The notes under the pieces: model-generated
The model's database searches: none
Told to the model about the DNA's origin: nothing
What the model saw: only the letters and a program-made list of their open reading frames with translations
Assembly (NCBI GenBank): GCA_021778415.1
Contig: JAJYCL010000030.1
Coordinates: 1-34,019, forward strand
DNA from: a bacterium
GTDB taxonomy: Bacteria; Vulcanimicrobiota; Vulcanimicrobiia; Vulcanimicrobiales; Vulcanimicrobiaceae
DNA: 34,019 nt
Direction: 5' to 3'
In this document: positions 18,513-34,019 of the stretch, piece after piece
Layout: each line of letters begins with the position of its first letter
Position numbering within the stretch: position 1 is the stretch's first letter
Translations under genes and position numbers: made by a program

Positions 18513-19739
18513 TTAGCACCACCATGCCCACCATGGGCACCACGGAGTCGGCGTCGGTTGCGGCGTCGGAGCCGGGGTTGCCGTCGGTTGTGGCGTCGGA
18601 GCCGGAGTTGACGTCGGTTTCGGCGTTGGAGCCGGAGTGGACGTCGGCTTCGGCGTCGGTGCCGGAGTTGTCGTCGGTTTCGGCGTCGGTGCCGGAGTTG
18701 CCGTCGGCGCAGGCGTTGGAACCGGAGTTGCCGTCGGCGCAGGCGTTGGCGGTGGCGTCGAAACGCTCCCGTAGCTCGTCGCGCATCCCGAAATGGCGTT
18801 CGACCAAATCGGTTGAACCGGATACGTGCTTCCGTTCGGGAAGCTGTAGTTTTGCAGGTTCGTCCAGGCGCACTTGTCGCCGTTTTCTGCACCGCTGGAA
18901 TCTACCCAACCGTTTCCGGCACCCGGATCCGAATTGGTTTCTTCCTCTTCGTGTCCGCCGACGACGGAAACGCCATCAAGCGTACCCGGCGAGTTGACGG
19001 AACCGCTGCCGCAGCCACTTCCGGCATCGGGCGTGTACGGAAGGTTCGTGTACGCATATGCGCGGCCACTCGAATCCGTTGCGGTGTTGTGATAGCCGCA
19101 CCATTGGCTTCCAAAGCCCGATTGCGTGTATCCGGTCGGCGTGACGACAACGTAGTTGGCATTCACGTCGTAGCCGAAATGCGCAATCGCATTTGCTGCT
19201 TCGTTCGCAACATCTGAATCGGCGTAAGTTTGCGCTGGAACCGAAGAGTCGTACCAAACACCGAGCAATTGCGCGTTCGGGTTGGTGACATACTGATTCG
19301 AACCGTTGGTCGTTTGGTAATATTGCGTATCGACATTGGCCCAATTGCTTCCGCCGATGGCGGTATAGTAACCGGTGAGATACGACGCTAATCCATCAGG
19401 ATCGGCGTTGGTGTCGTTTGAAGATTGCCATCCCCAGAAAATCAAATAGATGTGCGGCGTGGTTTGCACCGGTCCGCCACCATAAATGAGATTATTGCTG
19501 GCTGCAGCTCTGTGTGCCATCGTCCGCGTCCCGTTGATCGGGAAGTGCGGATTCGGGTGCGCTGCCAAATATGGCTTAGAATAGAAGACGTGTCGCTGAC
19601 CAATGGACGCGACATGGGTTGGAGATTTCTGCGTGCCTACGCCCGTTGGCAGCACCGTGGATGCTCCGTGATTTCCGGAACACGCGGCGAGCAACGAACC
19701 GATCAGCAACGCCGAAAAGACGCCCTTAGATACCTTCAA
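18513..19739 (-). CDS. EXORDIUM-like secreted lipoprotein with Pro/Thr repeat tail
   Basis: The 408-residue product begins with a lipoprotein signal and lipobox LLAAC (Cys20). The core resembles bacterial relatives of plant EXORDIUM/PHI-1 proteins: [58 protein letters not shown] and [12 protein letters not shown]. The HExxE-type HEEEE segment suggests a metal site, but no activity is established. From about residue 330 there are seven APTPxPTxTP decapeptides and a final WCPWWAWWC with two cysteines. The repeat is probably a flexible spacer through the cell wall or envelope, and the tip might be an adhesion or disulfide cap (inference). TTG at 19739 has GGAGG six bases upstream; the in-frame TTG at 19754 would place that site within the gene. 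Confidence 0.75.
18543..18752 (-). repeat. Seven 30-base tandem repeats encoding APTPxPTxTP
   Basis: Seven in-frame 30-base units near the 3' end of the lipoprotein gene encode decapeptides that vary only at a few positions (A/V/P at 1, A/K/Q at 5, A/T/S/P at 8). High DNA similarity between units predicts copy-number variation by slippage without a frameshift. Confidence 0.88.
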
Positions 19740-24982: not shown

Positions 24983-25403
24983 GTCACCCTGAGGAGCGCA
25001 CAAAGTGCGCGTCGCCCCCCGTCACCCTGAGGAGCGCACGCAGTGCGCGTCGCCCCCGTCACCCTGAGGAGCGCACGAAGTGCGCGTCTCGAAGGGCCAA
25101 TGTTGCACGCTACGCGTGCTCCGTTTGATCATGCTTCGAGACGCGATGCTTCGCATCGCCCCTCAGCATGACAGAAACCCGTCACCCTGAGGAGCGCACG
25201 AAGTGCGCGTCTCGAAGGGCGCATCGCTCCTCATGCTTCGAGACGCGATGCTTCGCATCGCTCCTCAGCATGACAGAACCCCCGTCACCCTGAGGAGCGC
25301 CCAAAGGGCGCGTCTCGAAGGGCGCATCGCTCCTCAGCATGACAGAACCCCTGTCACCCTGAGGAGCGCACGCAGTGCGCGTCTCGAAGGGCGAGACGCG
25401 ATG
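24983..25403. repeat. REP-like block A
   Basis: Fills the whole gap between two convergent gene ends. Direct units start GTCACCCTGAGGAGC at 24983, 25021, 25058, 25181, 25284 and 25353, with inverted partners ending in CTCAGCATGACAG after three of them. The unit core is GAGC plus a small palindrome (GCGCAC-x3-GTGCGC or GCGCCC-x3-GGGCGC) and GTCTCGAAGGGC. The first two units are cut short at GTCGCCCC. No gene is supported here; short open frames inside are translated repeats. Confidence 0.92.
25058..25174. repeat. Composite BIME-like element, copy 1
   Basis: A complete composite: left unit (CACCCTGAGGAGC-stem-GTCTCGAAGGGC), a middle hairpin GCACGC-TAC-GCGTGC followed by TCCGTTTGATCATG, and an inverted right unit (CTTCGAGACGC-stem-CCTCAGCATGACAG). 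The right stem is GCGATGC-TTC-GCATCGC. Confidence 0.85.
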
Positions 25404-26900
25404 TTATTCGGCGATTGCGACGGCTTCGGCGAGTGCGGGATTTGCGCGCGGTGCGCGCATGAAGAAGACGAGCGGCGTCGCGATCACAAAGACGATTCCC
25501 ACAAGTCGGAAAACATAATCATACGAAATCATCGTCGCCTGCTGCACCACCATGCCGCTTAAAACACCCAACGGCACACCGTGCGTTTGCGTCACGCCGC
25601 CGGCTAATACGTTCTGCGCGATCGCTCCCTCATGCGTGAGCAACGTCGTCAAGATCGCAATACCGAAACTTCCGCCGAGCTGACGAACGAGCGTAAAGAC
25701 GCCGGTCGCGCCGGCCATCCCGGCAATCGGCACTTCGCCAAGCGAAGCCGTCGTCAGCGGAACAAAAAGCGCACCAAGGCCGAACCCTTGAATCATACGC
25801 GGCCAAAAGACATCCCAAAATCCGGATTCGGAGGTGAGCCCGCCGAGCCACCACGCCGAATACGCAAAGATCAACATTCCCGCTGCAACAAGGACGCGCG
25901 GATCAAATTTATGCCCGAACCTCCCCAGCACAAACATCGTTAGCGCAGTTGCAAGCGCACCCGGCAAAAGCACAAGTCCCGTATCGAACGCCGTGAGATT
26001 CAGCATCACTTGTAAAAACAGCGGGAGAATAAGTGTCACACCAAAGAGCCCGAAGCCCGAGATGAATCCAACGATATTTCCCACCGCAAATGTGCGAATA
26101 TGAAACATTTTGAGATTTACCAGCGGCTCGCGCTCGCGAATCATCTTCCAGATAAAAAACGTCAGCGAAATCACGGCAACACCGGTGAGTAGCACGATGG
26201 TCGAAGAATCCCACCAGCCATCATGCTCGCCGCGCTCAAGCACATACTGCAGCGATGAAAGCCCGGCAACGAGCAACGTCAACCCAGTCCAATCCACACC
26301 GCCCTTCGGCTTTTCGAGATAATGCGGATTCGGAATAAACATAAGCGTCATAATGAACGCGGCAATACCGATGGGGATATTAATGTAGAAGATCAACGGC
26401 CACGTTGCATTATCAACGAGATATCCGCCAAGCGTCGGCCCTACGGCCGGGCCAACCATCGCCCCCAAACCGAAGATCGCCATCGCCTGCCCACGTTTTT
26501 CTTTGGGAAACGATTCAAACAAAATCGATTGCGCAGTCGGCTGCAGTGCGCCGCCGCCAATGCCTTGCAGAACGCGATAAAACACCAGCTGCCAAATCGA
26601 TGTCGCCGTTCCGCAGAGTAGCGATGAAAGCGTAAAGATCGCCAGCGACACCGCGTAGAAATTCTTGCGACCAAAATACGCCGTCAGCCAACCATTCAGC
26701 GGCATGACGCAGACGCTCGCTAAAATGTACCCGGTGGCAACCCAGGAAACTTCATCGACGGTCGCCCCAAGATTGCCGGCGATGGTCGGAAGCGCCACAT
26801 TCACGATCGTGGCATCGATAATCGCCATGATTAATCCGAGCATAACGGTCACCGTGATAATAGCGACGTTTTTGCGCTCGCCCGCTTGCCCAGTTGTCAC
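25404..26900 (-). CDS. DHA2-family drug efflux MFS transporter (EmrB/QacA type)
   Basis: This 498-residue inner-membrane proton antiporter has about 14 transmembrane helices. Hallmarks: MAIIDATIVNVALPTIAGNL in helix 1, VSWVATGYILA in helix 2, the loop motif GWLTAYFGRKNFY, QGIGGGALQPTAQSILFESF, and the antiporter motif C GLGAMVGPAVGPTLGGYL. Substrates are probably hydrophobic drugs or cations. No EmrA-type membrane-fusion gene is adjacent, so it may act alone or with a partner elsewhere. Start is GTG at 26900 without a ribosome site, but with a -10-like TATTCT eight bases before it, consistent with a leaderless message. An inverted repeat covers the start codon. The 3' end abuts REP-like block A. 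Confidence 0.92.
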   Translation of the reverse strand: MTTGQAGERKNVAIITVTVMLGLIMAIIDATIVNVALPTIAGNLGATVDEVSWVATGYILASVCVMPLNGWLTAYFGRKNFYAVSLAIFTLSSLLCGTATSIWQLVFYRVLQGIGGGALQPTAQSILFESFPKEKRGQAMAIFGLGAMVGPAVGPTLGGYLVDNATWPLIFYINIPIGIAAFIMTLMFIPNPHYLEKPKGGVDWTGLTLLVAGLSSLQYVLERGEHDGWWDSSTIVLLTGVAVISLTFFIWKMIREREPLVNLKMFHIRTFAVGNIVGFISGFGLFGVTLILPLFLQVMLNLTAFDTGLVLLPGALATALTMFVLGRFGHKFDPRVLVAAGMLIFAYSAWWLGGLTSESGFWDVFWPRMIQGFGLGALFVPLTTASLGEVPIAGMAGATGVFTLVRQLGGSFGIAILTTLLTHEGAIAQNVLAGGVTQTHGVPLGVLSGMVVQQATMISYDYVFRLVGIVFVIATPLVFFMRAPRANPALAEAVAIAE

Positions 26901-26920
26901 TTACGAAGAATAGGTGACAA
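26894..26920. promoter_or_regulatory. Inverted repeat over the exporter start codon
   Basis: TTGTCAC at 26894-26900 and GTGACAA at 26914-26920 are perfect 7-base arms with a 13-base spacer, centres 20 bases apart (about two helical turns). The arms flank the -10-like hexamer (26907-26912) and include the GTG start, a good position for a dimeric repressor operator. Confidence 0.5.
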
Positions 26921-27026
26921 TCCCCCAAACCCCTGCCAACTGCGTAGCACCCTCCATGCCTCGTGTCATCGACTCCGTCACCCTGAGGAGCGCACGACTC
27001 TGTCACCCTGAGGAGCGCACGACTCT

Positions 27027-27164
27027 GTCACCCTGAGGAGCGATGCGAAGCATCGCGTCTCGAAGGGTCGAAGGGTCGAAGGGCCGGGCCAATGTTGCAC
27101 GCTAACGCGTGCTCCGTTTGATGATGCTTCGAGACACTCGCTGCGCTCGTTCCTCAGCATGACA
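27027..27164. repeat. Composite BIME-like element, copy 2
   Basis: Same order as copy 1: left unit with stem GCGATGC-GAA-GCATCGC, expanded TCGAAGGG run, middle hairpin GCACGC-TAAC-GCGTGC, then a right unit with ACTCGC-TGC-GCTCGT, whose arms are not fully complementary, ending in CTCAGCATGACA. Confidence 0.8.
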
Positions 27165-27180
27165 AAGCCCCATGTCATTC

Positions 27181-27260
27181 TGAGGACCGCGCGCCCCCGT
27201 CACCCTGAGGAGCGCACAACTGAGGACCGCGCGCCCCCGTCATCCTGAGGAGCGCACCAC
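27181..27260. repeat. 40-base tandem duplication inside block B
   Basis: Two adjacent 40-base copies (27181-27220, 27221-27260) begin TGAGGACCGCGCGCCCCCGT and differ at few positions. Their high identity points to a recent local duplication. Confidence 0.75.
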
Positions 27261-27373
27261 TCTGTCATCCTGAGGAGCGCAGCACTCTGTCATCCTGAGG
27301 AGCGATGCGAAGCATCGCGTCTCGAAGGACGGCTCTGTGATCCTCCCGGACGCGGAAATAACGTGGAGCGTGA

Positions 27374-28426
27374 TTACGACGAAGGGAGATTGTGCGCAAC
27401 CGTCACGTCGAAGGATATGATGCCGATATGATGCCGGTCGGAGGCTTCCAGATCCACCGTAACGCCGGTCTGCGCATCCGTCCATTTCGTGTTGCCATAC
27501 CGATGCCCGCAGTATCCTGGAGTCGAGCACGAAGGAATCGTTGCATCGAGTCGGTCGCTGGTAATGCGAAAGTCGGTAGGCAACCTAAGCGAGATGGCAC
27601 TTCGCAGCGATCGATATTCCGAGCCGAAATCTCCAAAAAAGCGAGCGGATGAACACGTGATATCCCAGTAGGCGTGCTGGTTATATTTTCCCGTGGGCTC
27701 GAACGTCACAAAACACGGCCCGGTATGGTTGAGATAGCGCCACGGAACGCCGGGCGCTGCAAGGTACGTGAGTTGACCGGCAACCCACTTCGATGTTTGC
27801 GGCGCATCGAGACGAAAGCGAGCAAAATTCGTTGCCGCTTGTGCAACGGCGCGGCGAGCATACGCTCCATACGCCATTGCCGTGCGCGTGAAAGCAATCG
27901 AGGCGAGCGGCGGTGCCGCGCGCGTTGTCGCTTGAGTCACCACAAACCTCACGCGCGTCGAGTTCGGGTCGCTCGTCGCGAGGATCGTCGGATCGCCGCT
28001 ATGCGTCCACAAAAAACGCAATTGCCCGGGATGATCGAGCTTGGGGAAGTGCAACGTCGCCTTCGGAAATAGTTGGCTAATATCATACGCCATCGAGTTT
28101 CCTTCGGATCCGATCGGCAATTCTGCTCTCGTCATCACCGCGTCAAAACGCACAACCCACGGCCCTGTTTTCGATGTCCGTTCGATACTGCAGGAAAAGC
28201 GCGTGCGGCATGAGAGCGAGGGTAATTTCTTCCTTTGCAATGCATACACGGGGCCATAGGCGTTGTGAGCAATGATCGCGCCGCGGAATGGCAGAAAGGC
28301 AGAAGCGCTTGCGCGAGCGACGAGAAAAAGATCGGCGAAGCCGCGCGGCTCGGGAGTTTCTTTGGCGAGGACCGCTTGCGCGGCAAACGCCGCTACAAGA
28401 AAGGCAATGACGACACGACGTTTCAT
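27374..28426 (-). CDS. Secreted protein, unknown function
   Basis: The 350-residue product has a cleavable signal peptide (MKRRVVIAFLVAAFAAQAVLA, then KE). The mature protein is rich in aromatics and has six or so cysteines, including SCRTRFSCS and CSTPGYCG, suggesting periplasmic disulfides. No known domain is recognised. ATG at 28426 is preceded by AAGGAA. It starts 12 bases after the DUF4010-type gene, so the two are probably one operon, with the membrane protein first. Its role with that protein is unknown. Confidence 0.78.
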   Translation of the reverse strand: MKRRVVIAFLVAAFAAQAVLAKETPEPRGFADLFLVARASASAFLPFRGAIIAHNAYGPVYALQRKKLPSLSCRTRFSCSIERTSKTGPWVVRFDAVMTRAELPIGSEGNSMAYDISQLFPKATLHFPKLDHPGQLRFLWTHSGDPTILATSDPNSTRVRFVVTQATTRAAPPLASIAFTRTAMAYGAYARRAVAQAATNFARFRLDAPQTSKWVAGQLTYLAAPGVPWRYLNHTGPCFVTFEPTGKYNQHAYWDITCSSARFFGDFGSEYRSLRSAISLRLPTDFRITSDRLDATIPSCSTPGYCGHRYGNTKWTDAQTGVTVDLEASDRHHIGIISFDVTVAHNLPSS

Positions 28427-28438
28427 GTAAATTCCTTA

Positions 28439-29893
28439 CTACGGACGAAACGAAACAAAGACGGTTGCAACGAGCGTGACGATCGCGATAATGATGAGCG
28501 CGAGCGCCGCGAGCCACTGGCGTCGCCCACCGAAGATCAGTGCATAGACGGCTTTGAGTGCGTCGTTCGATGCTGCGGCAATAAGAATCGCAACCGCGGC
28601 ACCGCCCGCCTGCATGCCGACAACGCTGCCCTGCGCAAGAGAGAGCACGAAAGGATCGATATCGGTAAAGCCGACGATCGCCGCAAGAATATTGATTCCG
28701 GTATGCCCGTAATTCGCTTGCGCCCATTGCGTTGCCAGTGTGACGAGTACAAAGAGAACGGCGAACGTCAATGCCGTCCCAAGTTGCAGCGGATTGCCGG
28801 CTGCAATGGCAAGCGGCTCCCCATCGAATTTCTCGCGCGCAAAAAAGTACAACGCCGAAGCAATCGCAAGAGAAAAAACGAACAGCGCAAGCGACGGGAC
28901 CAGCAGTCGCTCAGCGTCGGCGAGATTAAAAACCGCGACAACCAGGAGCAGACGAATATACATGAGTGCCGTCGCCAAAATAATTCCGGCGCGTTCGCTG
29001 CGAATATTGTGGCCGTCATGCGCGCGGCGGGCAAGCACGACCGTCGTTGCCGTCGAAGAATAGAGCCCGCCAAGCGCCGCCGCAATCAGCGCGCCGCCTC
29101 TGGGCTTAAGATACGTTTGTACCAGATAACTAAAATACGAGAGCGCTGAGATCACGACGACGGCCAGAAGCATTCGTTGCGGTGAAATCGCACCGAGCCA
29201 GGCAATCGGCGTTGTTGGAAGCAGCGGTAAGGCAACGCCTGCGAGTAAGAGAAATTGCGCCGCCGTAAAAACTTCGTCGGCGATGACGTTATCGGCAAGT
29301 CGATGCAATTGCACGCGTCCGGCGAGCAATAACGCGGAGATCGTTGCCACCGCGATCACTACCCACGGCGGTTGCGCTAAGGCGACGCCGCCGATCGTAA
29401 AAGCCAGAAGATTTGTCGCCGGCACGACCAATTCGGCCCGCAGCGCATCGGCTTCTTGTGCTTGGAGACGTTTAGCGTAAAACACGCCGAGCCATCCGGC
29501 GACGGCAAGCATGCCGATAACAAATGGCAGATGCGTCGTCGGATCCAACGTCCAAAGCATCGCTCCGAGAATGGCGAGCAGCGGAAACGTGCGAATGCCG
29601 CCCGGCGGTCGAACGCTCTCTTGCTTGTAAAACTGTTCAAACGCGAGCCCGAGAAAGACTCCCATAAACAACGCGAGCGCAAAACGCTCCGGCGCAAGCA
29701 CGAGCGAGGAACTCATATCCGTGCCGCTTCGCAGTGATCCCATGATCCCCTGGTCCTCATCGTTAAGAGGGGAACCCAAACCCGCGAAATTCACACCGCC
29801 GTCGCCGAGATGCACGTCGAGGAAGAAGATGAAGACGGCGATTTCGACGAGGAAGATGATGAACACGAGGCCGAAGTCGCGCCTGAGACTCAT
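28439..29893 (-). CDS. MgtC/DUF4010-type membrane protein
   Basis: The 484-residue protein has about 12 hydrophobic segments. Near residue 60 a MgtC-like domain begins: ERFALALFMGVFLGLAFEQF, then GIRTFPLLAILGAML. The second half matches DUF4010 (ALGGLYSSTATTVVLARRA; VVGFTDIDPFVLSLAQG). Related proteins have been linked to Mg or other cation homeostasis, but the activity is not settled. An extra N-terminal hydrophobic segment (FGLVFIIFLVEIAVFIFFL) precedes the MgtC part, if ATG 29893 is the start. ATG 29956 would overlap the divergent gene, and a later Met (GIMGSLRSGTDM) is another choice. First gene of a two-gene operon. Confidence 0.82.
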   Translation of the reverse strand: MSLRRDFGLVFIIFLVEIAVFIFFLDVHLGDGGVNFAGLGSPLNDEDQGIMGSLRSGTDMSSSLVLAPERFALALFMGVFLGLAFEQFYKQESVRPPGGIRTFPLLAILGAMLWTLDPTTHLPFVIGMLAVAGWLGVFYAKRLQAQEADALRAELVVPATNLLAFTIGGVALAQPPWVVIAVATISALLLAGRVQLHRLADNVIADEVFTAAQFLLLAGVALPLLPTTPIAWLGAISPQRMLLAVVVISALSYFSYLVQTYLKPRGGALIAAALGGLYSSTATTVVLARRAHDGHNIRSERAGIILATALMYIRLLLVVAVFNLADAERLLVPSLALFVFSLAIASALYFFAREKFDGEPLAIAAGNPLQLGTALTFAVLFVLVTLATQWAQANYGHTGINILAAIVGFTDIDPFVLSLAQGSVVGMQAGGAAVAILIAAASNDALKAVYALIFGGRRQWLAALALIIIAIVTLVATVFVSFRP

Positions 29894-29954
29894 CTCGGAG
29901 ATCCGAACGCGTAAACAGGAATCGTGATTTCGCAGCGAGGAGTGAAGCAATGTC

Positions 29955-30680
29955 ATGAAATTGCTTACAACACTCCTTGCTGCTTTTTGCTTCGCAGCGC
30001 TTTTGCCCGCATGTGCCGGACAAGCCGCAAACGCCTCAGTCTGCGATATGCCCTATGCGCCGGTGCATATCGGTGCGCGGTGGGTCTATTCGATGGCAAG
30101 CCAAATCCCGACGATGAACGGAACGATCACGACATCGATTCTCTCGGCATCAGCAACGTCGTTTGTGATGCAAACGGTCACATCGCTGCATGGTGTAAAA
30201 CCGGCAACGGTTATCCGTACAACGGTTGCGTGTTCGAATAGCGCGCATGATCGCGGTATGCTCCGCCCAAAATCCGGCGTCACGATTGCGTTCAATAGCA
30301 AAAATAGCTTCTCGTTTACGAATGTTGCCGGGACGATGATACCGCCGGAAAATCATTGGGTGACCGGGTACTCATGGGTGTATGTAACCACGTCGAAGGC
30401 CAAAGGCTATGGTCCGCACGCCAACATTTCCGGAACGGTGACGACGCGTATGCATTATCAGGTGCAAGCGCCGGTGAGTATTTCCGTGCCATTCGGGCAT
30501 TTCACGGCGATCCCCATCACGAGCATTACCCTTGCTAGCGAGGATATGAAAATCAATAAACTGCCAATCACCGGCAATAGCATGATGCCGACCACGACGT
30601 ATTACTATGTCAAAGGCATCGGCATGGTGAAAAGTGTCTCGCCGATGGTGATCAGCGAACTGCGTTCCTACACACCCTAG
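29955..30680 (+). CDS. Lipoprotein or secreted protein, unknown function
   Basis: The 241-residue product starts with a signal peptide and lipobox LLPAC (Cys20). It has a single further Cys pair (SVCDMPY; TTVACSN) and beta-rich segments such as GARWVYSM, ENHWVTGYSWVYVTT and YYYVKGIGMVKSVSP. The last resembles the end of small DUF-type lipoproteins that read out as WYAKGVGLVK, a pattern found in proteins of unknown role. AGGAG at 29938-29942 is 12 bases before the ATG. It diverges from the MgtC-like gene with 61 bases between starts, so they may share control. A GC-rich hairpin (30691-30722) follows the stop. Confidence 0.78.
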   Translation: MKLLTTLLAAFCFAALLPACAGQAANASVCDMPYAPVHIGARWVYSMASQIPTMNGTITTSILSASATSFVMQTVTSLHGVKPATVIRTTVACSNSAHDRGMLRPKSGVTIAFNSKNSFSFTNVAGTMIPPENHWVTGYSWVYVTTSKAKGYGPHANISGTVTTRMHYQVQAPVSISVPFGHFTAIPITSITLASEDMKINKLPITGNSMMPTTTYYYVKGIGMVKSVSPMVISELRSYTP

Positions 30681-30724
30681 CGCCCGGCATAGGAGCTTGC
30701 CCGCGTTTCGTGCAAGCGCTCGGC

Positions 30725-31708
30725 ATGCAAGCATTAACGTATTCCACCTTCGGCGAACCCTCCGACGTTATTCGTCTGACGGATCTTCCCGATGGGCAAC
30801 CCGGCGTCGGTGAGGTGCGGCTGCGCATCGTACAAGCGCCAATTCACAACCACGATCTCGCGACGATTCGCGGCCGTTACGGTGTACGTCCGGAATTACC
30901 GGCGTCGGCGGGTTCCGAAGCACTCGGCATCGTTGAAGCCTGCGGCGATGGTGTCAGCAACGTCAAGGTCGGCCAACGCGTCGCATCATCCGGAATTCGC
31001 GGCGCATGGGCGCAGCATGCCATCGTGCCGGCGCAAGGTGTCGTCCCTGTTCCCGATGGCATGCCCGATGATGCGGCCTGTCAGTTGCTTGCGATGCCGC
31101 TTTCGGCGCTCGTGTTGCTCGATGAGTTGCATTTGCCGGAGGGAACATGGATCGTACAAACGGCCGCTGGTGGTGCGGTCGGACGCTTGTTAGAGAGCAT
31201 CGCCGCGCGAAAAAATATTTCTGTCATCAATTTGGTGCGTCGAGAAGAAGCGGCGCAAGCATTACGCAACGACGGTGCGCGTCACGTTGTCTCCACGGAT
31301 GCCGATGATTGGACGACGCACGTGCGCGCGATCGTTGGTGACGGCAAAATTTCGCGCATCGTCGATTCCGTCGCCGGCCCACTCGCACTCAAACTCGTGC
31401 GCTTACTAGCCGACCGTGGCGAATTCGTCGTCTTCGGTGCGCTCGAACCCAAGCCGCTGTCGATCGATCCCGGCGCGTTGATCTTCAATCACATTATCGT
31501 GCGCGGCTTCTGGATGACGAAGTGGATGCAAGAAGCAACGCCGCAACAGCGCGGTGCCGCGTTCGCCGATCTCTTTGCTCTCGTGCAGGCCGGAGCACTC
31601 GATCTACGCGTCAGCGCCCACTTCCCACTCAGCGATGCCAAAGCCGCCCTCATAGCCGCCGAAACCCCCGGCCGCCAAGGCAAAGTAACCTTCCGCCCGT
31701 CACCCTGA
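30725..31708 (+). CDS. MDR-family NADPH:quinone/enoyl reductase (MECR-like)
   Basis: This 327-residue medium-chain dehydrogenase/reductase lacks the catalytic zinc ligands. Visible: MQALTYSTFGEPSDVIRL, APIHNHDLATIRGRYG, SEALGIVEACGDGVSNVKVG, WAQHAIVPAQGVVPVPDGM, and the NADPH loop TAAGGAVGRLLESIAARKN. This resembles the MECR/2-enoyl-thioester reductase and quinone reductase branch; the substrate is not predictable. ATG at 30725 gives the family N-terminus; GTG at 30710 is an alternative, and neither has a well-spaced ribosome site. The gene ends with Ser-Pro-stop taken from the first REP-like unit of block C, after the usual GKVTFRP ending. Confidence 0.88.
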   Translation: MQALTYSTFGEPSDVIRLTDLPDGQPGVGEVRLRIVQAPIHNHDLATIRGRYGVRPELPASAGSEALGIVEACGDGVSNVKVGQRVASSGIRGAWAQHAIVPAQGVVPVPDGMPDDAACQLLAMPLSALVLLDELHLPEGTWIVQTAAGGAVGRLLESIAARKNISVINLVRREEAAQALRNDGARHVVSTDADDWTTHVRAIVGDGKISRIVDSVAGPLALKLVRLLADRGEFVVFGALEPKPLSIDPGALIFNHIIVRGFWMTKWMQEATPQQRGAAFADLFALVQAGALDLRVSAHFPLSDAKAALIAAETPGRQGKVTFRPSP

Positions 31709-32164
31709 GGAGCGCACGCCCCCTGTCACCCTGAGGAGCACGCGAAGCGTGCGTCTCGAAGGGCGAGACGCGATGCTCCGCATCGCTCCTCAGCATGACA
31801 GCACGTTGTCACCCTGAGGAGCACGCGCAGCGTGCGTCTCGAAGGGCGCTTGTCACCCTGAGGAGCGCACAAAGTGCGCGTCTCGAAGGGCACTTTGTCA
31901 CCCTGAGGAGCACGCGAAGCGTGCGTCTCGAAGGGCGAGACGCGATGCTCCGCATCGCTCCTCAGCATGACAGAACGCTGTCACCCTGAGCCCCCTCGTC
32001 ACCCTGAGGAGCGCCCAAAGGGCGCGTCTCGAAGGGCACTTTGTCACCCTGAGGAGCACGCGCAGCGTGCGTCTCGAAGGGCCGCGGGCCAAGGTTGCAC
32101 GCTCCGCGTGCTCCGTTTGATGATGCTTCGAGACGCTCGCTTCGCTCGCTCCTCAGCATGACAG
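31699..32164. repeat. REP-like block C
   Basis: Begins inside the last codons of the oxidoreductase gene and extends to 32164. Units use stems GCACGC-GAA-GCGTGC, GCACGC-GCA-GCGTGC, GCGCAC-AAA-GTGCGC and GCGCCC-AAA-GGGCGC, and two inverted partners carry GCGATGC-TCC-GCATCGC. No gene is supported within it. Confidence 0.92.
32043..32164. repeat. Composite BIME-like element, copy 3
   Basis: Left unit with stem GCACGC-GCA-GCGTGC, middle hairpin GCACGC-TCC-GCGTGC, and right unit with GCTCGC-TTC-GCTCGC (arms not complementary), ending CTCAGCATGACAG. Confidence 0.85.
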
Positions 32165-32188
32165 AGCATGAGTGCGCGGGGAAGGTGC

Positions 32189-32215
32189 TTGTGAAACCAA
32201 GCGCTGCGTGATAAT
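32189..32215 (+). promoter_or_regulatory. Putative promoter just after block C
   Basis: TTGTGA (32189-32194) and GATAAT (32210-32215) with a 15-base spacer, slightly short. The predicted start near 32222 leaves only about five bases before the ATG at 32228, so the message would be nearly leaderless. Confidence 0.4.
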
Positions 32216-32227
32216 GTTACGACGACT

Positions 32228-32440
32228 ATGGGCCACCACATCCACCCGATTCACGTGCAGAACGCTGCGTTTCTCCTGACGACGATCCCAGCATGGCTAG
32301 TGCTCGGCCTGATTATCGGCGCCGTTCGCGAGCGCACGCGCCGCGGCGTTGCGCGACTCGTACCGCAACCGGCGGTTGCCCCGCGCCGCTCGCCGGCCGC
32401 CGCGCGAGCACGCATTCTCGGTAGCACAAGCCTCCTGTAA
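32228..32440 (+). CDS. Possible small membrane protein
   Basis: This 70-residue frame has a His-rich start (MGHHIHPIHVQ), one hydrophobic helix (AAFLLTTIPAWLVLGLIIGA) and an Arg/Ala/Pro-rich tail. No ribosome site precedes the ATG, but a -10-like GATAAT ends 12 bases before it. Third-position G and C are frequent in the first half, as in true genes nearby. No family recognised and the tail could be non-coding, so the call is weak. Confidence 0.4.
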   Translation: MGHHIHPIHVQNAAFLLTTIPAWLVLGLIIGAVRERTRRGVARLVPQPAVAPRRSPAAARARILGSTSLL

Positions 32441-32468
32441 CCAGCCGAAAGAAAAATCCACGGCGGGC

Positions 32469-32497
32469 TTGACCCGCCTTTGTTTCGCCGCTATAGT
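32469..32497 (+). promoter_or_regulatory. Sigma-70-type promoter of the ArsR-type gene
   Basis: TTGACC at 32469-32474 and TATAGT at 32492-32497 with an exact 17-base spacer. The predicted start, about seven bases downstream, falls at 32504-32505, which is the A of the ATG, so the transcript should be leaderless. Confidence 0.75.
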
Positions 32498-32514
32498 TCA
32501 CCATATGGTTAACT
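32495..32514. promoter_or_regulatory. Palindromic operator over the ArsR start codon
   Basis: The 20-base sequence AGTTCACCATATGGTTAACT is a near-perfect dyad: inner ACCATATGGT is exact and the outer arms AGTTC/TAACT match at four of five pairs. It overlaps the end of the -10 box, the predicted start and the ATG, ideal for autorepression by the ArsR-type protein. Confidence 0.65.
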
Positions 32515-32852
32515 ATGCGCCCCCGGAACTCGACCGGACATTTTCCGCGCTCTCGGATCCCACGCGGCGCCGCATCCTGACGCAGCTGCTCCAAGGCAAG
32601 CGCTCGATCAGCGAACTCGCAAAGCCGCACCGAATGTCGCTGCCCGCGGTGATGAAACATCTCGATGTTCTGTCCGATGCAGGCCTCATCGCGCGCAAAA
32701 AAACGGGCCGCACCGTTGTCTGCACTCTGCAAGCCAAGCCGCTGCAAAACACCGTCGATTGGCTGCTGCAATACCGTCGTTTCTGGGAAGAGCGCTTTGA
32801 CCGCCTCGATGCCTATCTCGCACACGTCCAGCAAGGAGAATCCGATTCATGA
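32505..32852 (+). CDS. ArsR-family winged-helix repressor
   Basis: This 115-residue protein matches ArsR/SmtB-fold repressors that travel with SRPBCC genes: LDRTFSALSDPTRRRILTQL, RSISELAKPHRMSLPAVMKHL (recognition helix) and DVLSDAGLIARKKTGRTVVC. There are no metal-binding CxC or His clusters in the recognition helix, so it is probably a ligand- or partner-sensing or constitutive repressor rather than a metal sensor. ATG 32505 has no ribosome site but sits at the predicted transcription start. An upstream in-frame start at 32349 would put the promoter inside the gene. It overlaps the SRPBCC gene by four bases (ATGA). Confidence 0.9.
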   Translation: MVNYAPPELDRTFSALSDPTRRRILTQLLQGKRSISELAKPHRMSLPAVMKHLDVLSDAGLIARKKTGRTVVCTLQAKPLQNTVDWLLQYRRFWEERFDRLDAYLAHVQQGESDS

Positions 32853-33772
32853 CATCGCAAAACATTGCCGCCGATCCCCTCACGCTAACGCTCGTGCGCG
32901 AATTTGCGGCGCCGCGCGCGTTGCTCTTTTCCGCCTGGACGGATCCGAAACATCGCGTTCAATGGTTCGCCCCGCGCGGATACACCGTGACACACTTTGA
33001 GAGCGATGTCCGCCGCGGCGGAGCATGGCGTTCCTGTATGCACAATGATGAAACCGGGGAAGATATGTGGCACGGCGGTGCGTACGTTGAAGTCGTCTCC
33101 CCCGAACGCTTATCGTTCACCATGGCCTGGGACGGCGACGACGGACTTCCCGAGACGGAATTTCTCATCACCATTACGTTCACCGAACACGCCGGAAAAA
33201 CGACGATGACGTTCGTGCAAACCGGCCTGATTAGCGCGCAATCGCGCGATAACCACGGTTCCGGATGGTCGAGCGAATTCGATCGTCTTAGCGACATCAT
33301 TGATGCAACGCCGACGATCACGATCACCCGCCGCTTTCACGCATCGCGGGAACGTGTCTACGCTGCATGGTCTGATGCACAGCAACTCGCACAATGGTGG
33401 GGCCCGGAATCGTTTACCAACCCCATCTGCGATCTTGATTTTCGCGTCGGCGGCCACATGTATATCGTCATGCGCTCACCGGAAGGCCAGGATTTCCCAT
33501 GCTATTTCGCATTCACGGAAATCGACGCGCCGCGCCTCCTCGCGTATCGCGACGTTGATCCACCGGAAGGACCGCTCCCATGGACGTCCGCGATGCCGCG
33601 CCCACCAAAGCAACATACCACGGTGACATTCGATGAGCGCGACGGCATCACAACCATGATCGTGCAATGCACACTCGCCACACCCGCCGATCGCGACACC
33701 ATGGTAAAACTCGGCTTCATTGAAGGCATGTCCTCAAGCCTCGACACCCTAAAAAATATCTTGTCACCCTGA
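32849..33772 (+). CDS. Tandem SRPBCC (AHSA1-type) protein
   Basis: The 307-residue product contains two AHSA1-like START-fold domains in one chain. Domain 1 (about 10-152): LVREFAAPRALLFSAWTDPK, VQWFAPRG, WHGGAYVEVVSPERLSF. Domain 2 (about 153-305): ITITRRFHASRERVYAAWSD, LAQWWGPESFTN, RVGGHMYIVMRSPEG. The family binds hydrophobic ligands; the ligand here is unknown. AAGGAG at 32833-32838, ten bases upstream, supports the ATG at 32849. It is co-expressed with the ArsR-type gene. The protein ends with Ser-Pro-stop supplied by the first REP-like unit of block D. Confidence 0.88.
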   Translation: MTSQNIAADPLTLTLVREFAAPRALLFSAWTDPKHRVQWFAPRGYTVTHFESDVRRGGAWRSCMHNDETGEDMWHGGAYVEVVSPERLSFTMAWDGDDGLPETEFLITITFTEHAGKTTMTFVQTGLISAQSRDNHGSGWSSEFDRLSDIIDATPTITITRRFHASRERVYAAWSDAQQLAQWWGPESFTNPICDLDFRVGGHMYIVMRSPEGQDFPCYFAFTEIDAPRLLAYRDVDPPEGPLPWTSAMPRPPKQHTTVTFDERDGITTMIVQCTLATPADRDTMVKLGFIEGMSSSLDTLKNILSP

Positions 33773-33884
33773 GGAGCGCCCAACGGGCGCGTCTCGAAGG
33801 GCCGCACAAAATGTTGCACGCTTCGCGTGCTCCGTCTGATGATGCTTCGAGACGCGATGCTACGCATCGCTCCTCAGCATGACA
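33763..33884. repeat. Composite BIME-like element, copy 4
   Basis: Left unit with stem GCGCCC-AAC-GGGCGC, middle hairpin GCACGC-TTC-GCGTGC, right unit with GCGATGC-TAC-GCATCGC, ending CTCAGCATGACA. Same order and spacing as copy 3. Confidence 0.85.
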
Positions 33885-34019
33885 AAACCCCTGTCACCCT
33901 GAGGAGCACGCGCAGCGTGCGTCTCGAAGGGCGCTCGCACAGGATGACATCGTCTCGAAGGGCCCCCGTCACCCTGAGGAGCGCACAAAGTGCGCGTCTC
34001 GAAGGGCGAGACGCGATGC
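33763..34019. repeat. REP-like block D, running off the window
   Basis: Starts inside the last codons of the SRPBCC gene and continues to the right edge. Units use stems GCGCCC-AAC-GGGCGC, GCACGC-GCA-GCGTGC and GCGCAC-AAA-GTGCGC. A fragment (33945-33962) has GATGACATCGTCTCGAAGGG, apparently a fusion of two broken units. Confidence 0.9.

Follow-up and report, generated by a model that had tools for sequence, protein, structure and literature searches.

What kind of element makes up the short palindromic repeats that fill four blocks near the end of this contig, and how does it keep its hairpin while the bases of the stem change? The window, that is, the whole stretch of DNA analysed here, comprises positions 1 to 34,019 of contig JAJYCL010000030.1 (assembly GCA_021778415.1) from a bacterium of the family Vulcanimicrobiaceae. 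The blocks are quite probably arrays like the bacterial interspersed mosaic elements (BIMEs), built from a non-autonomous element of the repetitive extragenic palindrome (REP) type that is related to the CGTC/TGTC-tagged superfamily and behaves according to the mechanism proposed below. REPs of the CGTC type were published without a dedicated transposase, which raises the question of how they spread. In the present family, one small genome carries hundreds of copies, and a GNA loop, tandem G.A and a conserved bulge give the unit a clear strand polarity.

Repeat unit and copy number

The full unit is an imperfect hairpin of 37–41 nt. Its order is TGTC, outer stem, the fixed shoulder GAGGA, the first arm of the variable stem, a GNA loop, the second arm, the fixed shoulder GTCTC, GA bulge and outer stem. 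There are two outer-stem types, Y (ACCCT/AGGG) and Z (ATGCT/AGCAT). Folded alone, the unit shows CCCT-GAGG, an A.G mismatch, a stem of 6–7 bp, a 3-nt loop, the second arm, TCTC, the 2-nt GA bulge and AGGG.

The repeat was counted in an assembly of 2.59 Mb (61 contigs, 95.6% complete), in which some contigs end in repeats. The genome-wide count that the preliminary description called for gives at least 243 matches to a strict pattern; the reversed pattern, run as a control, gives 0. A looser pattern, applied to 595 kb of sequence around matches, gives 338 full copies, 205 of type Y, 128 of type Z and 5 other. Among these the tag ahead of the unit is TGTC in 270 and CGTC in 57 (97% together). 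Entropy is near zero in the shoulder columns and 0.6–1.6 bits in the columns of the stem and the loop centre. Loops are GNA in 291 of 330 units (88%) and AAA in 28 (8%). The stems listed earlier for the window (GCGCAC, GCACGC, GCGCCC and GCGATGC) and the loops (GAA, AAA, GCA and AAC) are all present, and the loop GTA occurs as well. Rfam returned sub-threshold microRNA families only, which we treat as chance, and no description of the family was found in the literature searched by its sequence strings.

Covariation of the stem

Pairing is kept while the bases change. In 35 distinct 39-nt copies from this genome, standard pairs occupy 95.9% of the pair cells compared with 87.0% after shuffling, and 55 cells are changed on both sides compared with 17.6; these counts cannot be taken as independent, since the set comes from one genome with only about eight main stems. 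The covariation score is 0.294, compared with 0.125 for shuffled copies and at most 0.098 when the columns are slid by 1–3. A second set of 46 copies, mostly from Alphaproteobacteria and more independent but seeded on exact shoulders, is 97.8% paired, with 80 double changes (19.5 shuffled) and a score of 0.355 (0.089 shuffled). The outer pairs covary too, C-G, C-G of Y being replaced by T-A, G-C of Z. The preliminary description, in which the flanks are almost fixed and the arms change together, is confirmed; neither of the outcomes that it had named as refuting, missing covariation and mostly unpaired stems, arose.

Two copies had been singled out there as breaking the pairing rule, at 27124–27163 and 32123–32162. 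They are not random failures but members of a recurrent class, GCGAGC-GNA-GCGAGC. The Z unit at 32123–32162 reads GCGAGC-GAA-GCGAGC on the minus strand, and its centre can be read as tandem G.A mismatches between G-C pairs. The Z unit at 27124–27163, also on the minus strand, reads ACGAGC-GCA-GCGAGT, in which A-T takes the place of the outer G-C pair. By number of copies GCGAGC/GCGAGC ranks third among the stem classes, with 39 of them spread over 22 arrays. At its centre 5'-GA-3' lies opposite 5'-GA-3' with two G-C pairs on each side, and it could form tandem G.A, a stable kind of mismatch. Perfect stems and the GCGAGC class are widespread, and no stem with another kind of mismatch is found in more than two arrays; in its dispersal the class thus behaves like a paired stem. 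The tandem-G.A motif also occurs in relatives with other neighbouring pairs (such as GCGAGCC/GGCGAGC and GCGAAC/GTGAGC).

Chance, low complexity or an assembly artefact is hardly credible as the source of this pattern. Contig ends do coincide with repeats, which are a known trouble spot of assembly, but the control gave no match, the same design is present in independent genomes and phyla, and covariation is found in both sets.

Array architecture and heterodimers

The arrays have the architecture of BIMEs, in that Y and Z units take turns and point in opposite directions, and no array has Y units in mixed orientation. The Y-Z joint is often a structured spacer with its own GNA-loop hairpin. 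Units of the same type have an identical stem in 73% of pairs within an array and in 37% of pairs between arrays, and private mutations are common to several units along some arrays, for example a GCAGCGC arm at the locus L016. This local uniformity and the shared private mutations fit tandem duplication.

Y and Z units hardly ever have the same stem. A stem common to Y and Z is present in 1 of 57 arrays, where 5.9 are expected on shuffling the Z sets among arrays (permutation P=0.003). The roles of the stems are exchangeable; two arrays have GCGATGC in Y and GCGCAC in Z, the reverse of the usual arrangement. In other genomes none of 58 dimers is a homodimer, with 0.7 expected, since stems are highly varied there. 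The same heterodimer preference is reported, as an unexplained feature, for CGTC-tagged REPs, together with the proposal that homodimers are removed as long palindromes (PMC3733652). The near-absence of identical inverted neighbours seen here quantifies that preference. We likewise propose that this is what keeps Y and Z distinct: two identical neighbours in inverted order would make up a long palindrome and be lost.

Other genomes and stem change at fixed sites

Of 60 related genomes, this one included, that were searched with a covariance model built from the unit, 15 have matches (this genome and 14 others). Several sister genera carry 30–62 copies with differing stems and shoulders, such as TCACGCCGAGTAGAGCGC-GAA-GCGCTCGTATCGAGGCGC. 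Two distant members of the phylum carry a compact form of 15 nt, CTGAGCGNAGCGAAG, with GCGNAGC in it; G144 has 227 copies and G142 has 68. Among the matches listed from other genomes, the strict shoulder pattern is common in Alphaproteobacteria (Bradyrhizobium, Reyranella, Bosea and Methylocystis among them), the tag is mostly CCTC, and there are at least 99 distinct stems in 196 copies, 158 of which are fully paired. In two such genomes, checked with the 3' shoulder no longer required, 15 of 20 matches keep this shoulder intact, and the 18 stems that could be parsed comprise about 13 different sequences, all fully paired. The exact shoulder pattern is also present in 79 viral-contig stretches of IMG/VR (L242–L320), with up to 6 copies per stretch; host DNA, a prophage or carriage by phage are all possible.

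Orthologous sites show what happens to a stem in place. One site has GCATCGC in one genome and GCCCGC in the other (flank identity 78.5%), and another has GCGGC and GGCGCG (76%). A single clean double change from C-G to T-A is seen in the pair L249/L317 (82.7%). An intergenic slot compared across 14 Bradyrhizobium-type genomes (L326–L348) contains a CTGAGG heterodimer in 5, an unrelated CGTCATTGCGAG palindrome in 6 and variants in the rest; the heterodimer stems there include GCCTGC, GCCGC and GCGGC. A slot with different palindromic families across species may be a hotspot or may reflect a functional need.

Such sites invite the explanation that stems are replaced whole by an active process, either copying of one arm from the other within the hairpin or exchange between copies through the shoulders, instead of changing by stepwise compensation. 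We find this doubtful, even though the shoulders are kept where both arms differ, sometimes in length (GCATCGC to GCCCGC; GCCTGC and GCCGC), and the 18 fully paired units of the two genomes span so many stems. Differences within arrays also lean this way, with 30 changes of both arms from perfect to perfect and 10 of one arm. However, the L249/L317 pair shows that a stepwise change of C-G to T-A occurs too, single-arm mismatches exist as intermediates, and the orthologous pairs are few, many of them seeded on exact shoulders. With changed stems and constant shoulders, the alphaproteobacterial sites make two questions testable, namely what reads the shoulders and whether stems change stepwise or as units.

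Placement and proposed working strand

With genes called by a simple hexamer score, none of 66 arrays lies inside a called gene. Where both neighbours are known, 19 arrays are in convergent, 28 in co-directional and 2 in divergent gaps; divergent gaps are avoided (Fisher p=2e-5 for convergent versus divergent). The median distance between an array and a stop codon is 37 nt, and four array edges reach 10 nt into the end of the adjoining gene. The orientation of Y does not follow GC skew (34 of 63), giving no replication-strand signal.

One strand of the unit is picked out by three asymmetric features, the GNA/AAA loop, the tandem G.A and a G.T pair that is fixed at columns 11/29 beside the A.G mismatch in both covariation sets. 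According to literature cited in PMC6479982, GNA loops give very stable DNA mini-hairpins and AAA is another compact DNA triloop. The working form is most likely the hairpin of the CTGAGG...CGAAG strand as single-stranded DNA.

The position directly after stop codons and the enrichment between convergent genes could instead mean that the repeat acts chiefly at the RNA level, as a hairpin at the 3' end of transcripts that terminates or protects them and whose pairing is selected copy by copy. The fixed G.T pair beside the A.G mismatch would suit such a role, as would the Bradyrhizobium-type slot, which is filled by different palindromic families as if some hairpin were wanted there. Yet arrays show no preference of orientation relative to the gene (13 sense, 14 antisense), and both orientations alternate within one array. 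No T run follows the unit, G.T is not in excess over A.C, and many relatives do without the repeat. A main function in RNA is possible but, in our judgement, unlikely. Intrinsic terminators were considered separately and rejected; T runs are missing after the units, and the excess in a terminator scan (24 against 13.4) is ascribed to hairpin-rich sequence.

Transposase search and the IS110-family element

Known REPs and BIMEs spread with a Y1 transposase of the REP-associated tyrosine transposase (RAYT) type, and the search for one that the preliminary description proposed was negative. Neither this genome nor any of the 14 relatives with the repeat has a match to Y1_Tnp (PF01797); 15 of the 45 others have one, a contrast confounded by kinship. 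None was found in G144 and G142, the distant genomes rich in the compact form, either. A RAYT link is therefore not supported. Y1 genes are present in 4 of 14 alphaproteobacterial carriers, at five loci; a single unit lies nearby at one of the five, on one side only, which we judge to be at chance level, and we rejected these loci as a repeat-flanked mobiliser.

The family could still be a canonical RAYT-mobilised REP/BIME whose Y1 gene is now lost or lies in an assembly gap. The architecture is that of BIMEs, and because contigs end in repeats, a repeat-flanked gene could have been lost. On the other side stand the missing Y1 in all carriers of this lineage, the tag, which is TGTC/CGTC and not GTAG, and the one-sided unit at one of five alphaproteobacterial loci. 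We hold this explanation to be improbable.

A single IS110-family element is present in the genome (L007:7228-8420, on contig C4 of G000). It interrupts a repeat unit after GTCACC and before GAGG, and the core is CT. The sequences that flank it, GCCGTCACCCT and CTGAGGAGCGCAC, join into a perfect unit. The gene is at L007:7434-8405, and the non-coding leader before it folds better than shuffled sequences (z -4.6) and contains a 7-by-7 internal loop. In the leader, TCACCCT has the sequence of the left target and TCCTCAG is complementary to the right one; TCACCCT followed by CCTCAG occurs in 9 of 20,000 shuffles. Judged from its sequence, this layout is that of a bridge RNA with a CT core, the putative guides matching the 5' shoulder of the repeat. 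IS621 is known to insert into REPs (PMC11208160). We rejected the IS110-family element as the mobiliser, as there is one gene here, most repeat-bearing relatives lack it, and it is inserted into the repeat and does not carry it. Its position inside a unit marks the repeat as its target.

Comparison with known systems and proposed mechanism

As the preliminary description had it, the family is REP/BIME-like in the broad sense. It is a short, mostly extragenic palindrome in hundreds of copies, with two unit types in alternating inverted pairs and a covarying stem. Among REPs it most resembles the CGTC-tagged superfamily, which has TGTC and CCTC tag variants, forms heterodimers without a dedicated transposase and includes neisserial dRS3 and rickettsial RPE-4 and RPE-6 (PMC3733652). 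In both, CGTC/TGTC stands directly ahead of the stem, which starts with A (AT in Z), alternative complementary stem bases occur within a family, heterodimers are formed, convergent and co-directional gene gaps are occupied, and no dedicated transposase is found. The stem of CGTC-tagged REPs, however, is 8–9 bp, with a loop of 4–5 nt and a CCA tail, whereas here it measures about 14 bp and includes a mismatch and a bulge of 2 nt, the 3-nt loop is GNA, and there is no CCA tail. The family is thus not a plain member of that superfamily. Dimers predominate and clusters are rare in CGTC-tagged REPs, whereas here dimers are present but large arrays are the rule.

The E. coli REP/BIME (PMC8266576) has bulged hairpins of similar size (29–37 nt), alternating inverted types, intergenic sites and many copies, but it has the GTAG tag, which is missing here, and TnpA-REP/RAYT, whose gene was found neither in this genome nor in the related carriers, and its stem is far less variable. 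Br-REP1 and Br-REP2 of Bradyrhizobium are also repeated palindromes in 3' regions of Alphaproteobacteria; their consensus is different, and the CTGAGG/CGAAG family of Bradyrhizobium is not described in that work (PMC5082802). Alternative complementary stem bases, heterodimers and 3' placement are thus already known. To these the present analysis adds the family itself, found across phyla, the class with tandem G.A, the prevalence of GNA in the loop, a number for the heterodimer preference, a distribution disjoint with that of Y1, and fixed sites where the stem changes and the shoulders stay constant.

We propose that a putative protein reads the fixed shoulders and the bulge and needs only pairing in the stem. 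Because such a protein would need nothing more of the stem, its bases could drift or be exchanged as long as they pair. Arrays would have grown locally through tandem duplication, and long-range spread would be due to an enzyme other than a detectable Y1/RAYT. Several points weigh against this proposal. Long-range mobility is something we infer rather than see directly, and a transposase between repeats could be missing from an assembly of many contigs. The rarity of unpaired stem types could reflect youth alone. Folding energies do not tell the two strands apart for perfectly paired stems, so single-stranded DNA as the working form stays an inference; distinct stems have G.T and A.C mismatches about equally often (6 and 5), giving no RNA-wobble signal. 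A bolder version is that this lineage, many Alphaproteobacteria and scattered other bacteria have one hairpin family in which an active process rewrites the stems in matched pairs at fixed sites and leaves the shoulders as they are, and that the family owes its movement to a class of enzyme different from Y1/RAYT. We put it forward as speculative and rather unlikely.

Blocks of the window and adjoining genes

All four blocks of the preliminary description were located, on the plus strand. Block 1 (24983–25402), in the gap between two convergent genes, is an array of Y (+) and Z (-) units. Two truncated Y units are followed by full ones at 25058–25097, 25181–25220, 25284–25323 and 25353–25392, and Z units lie at 25131–25171 and 25233–25273 on the minus strand. 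The structured Y-Z spacer TGTTGCACGCTACGCGTGCTCCGTTTGAT at 25099–25130 is a hairpin in its own right, its loop reading GNA on the minus strand; further copies are at 27092–27123, 32091–32122 and 33810–33841. Block 2 (26977–27331) has 25-nt tandem partial units, a full Y at 27027–27068, the Z at 27124–27163, more partial units, and a last full unit at 27289–27330 with the outer pair TC/GA. Block 3 (31699–32163) has one truncated and six full Y units (31725, 31808, 31852, 31897, 31998 and 32043), two half Z units and the full Z at 32123–32162. Block 4 (33763–34019) has Y at 33763–33802, Z at 33842–33883 and Y at 33893–33932 and 33968–34007, and reaches the window end.

Units cut short, which had gone unmentioned, are found at 24983, 25021, 26977, 27002, 27199, 27239, 27264 and 31699. 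The 25-nt tandem repeats at 26970–27042 and 27239–27304 are built from the 5' half of the unit alone, which suggests local decay and slippage within arrays.

Two genes of the window end in the repeat and account for two of the four array edges that overlap a gene end by 10 nt. The zinc-binding dehydrogenase gene (30710–31708, plus strand) has its stop TGA inside the first repeat of block 3 (TCA CCC TGA GG), and the AHSA1-domain gene (32849–33772, plus strand) has its own inside the first repeat of block 4; in both the TGA lies within CCCTGAGG. Elsewhere in the window, at 18543–18760, a 30-bp unit is repeated in tandem in 6.5 copies, probably within coding sequence.

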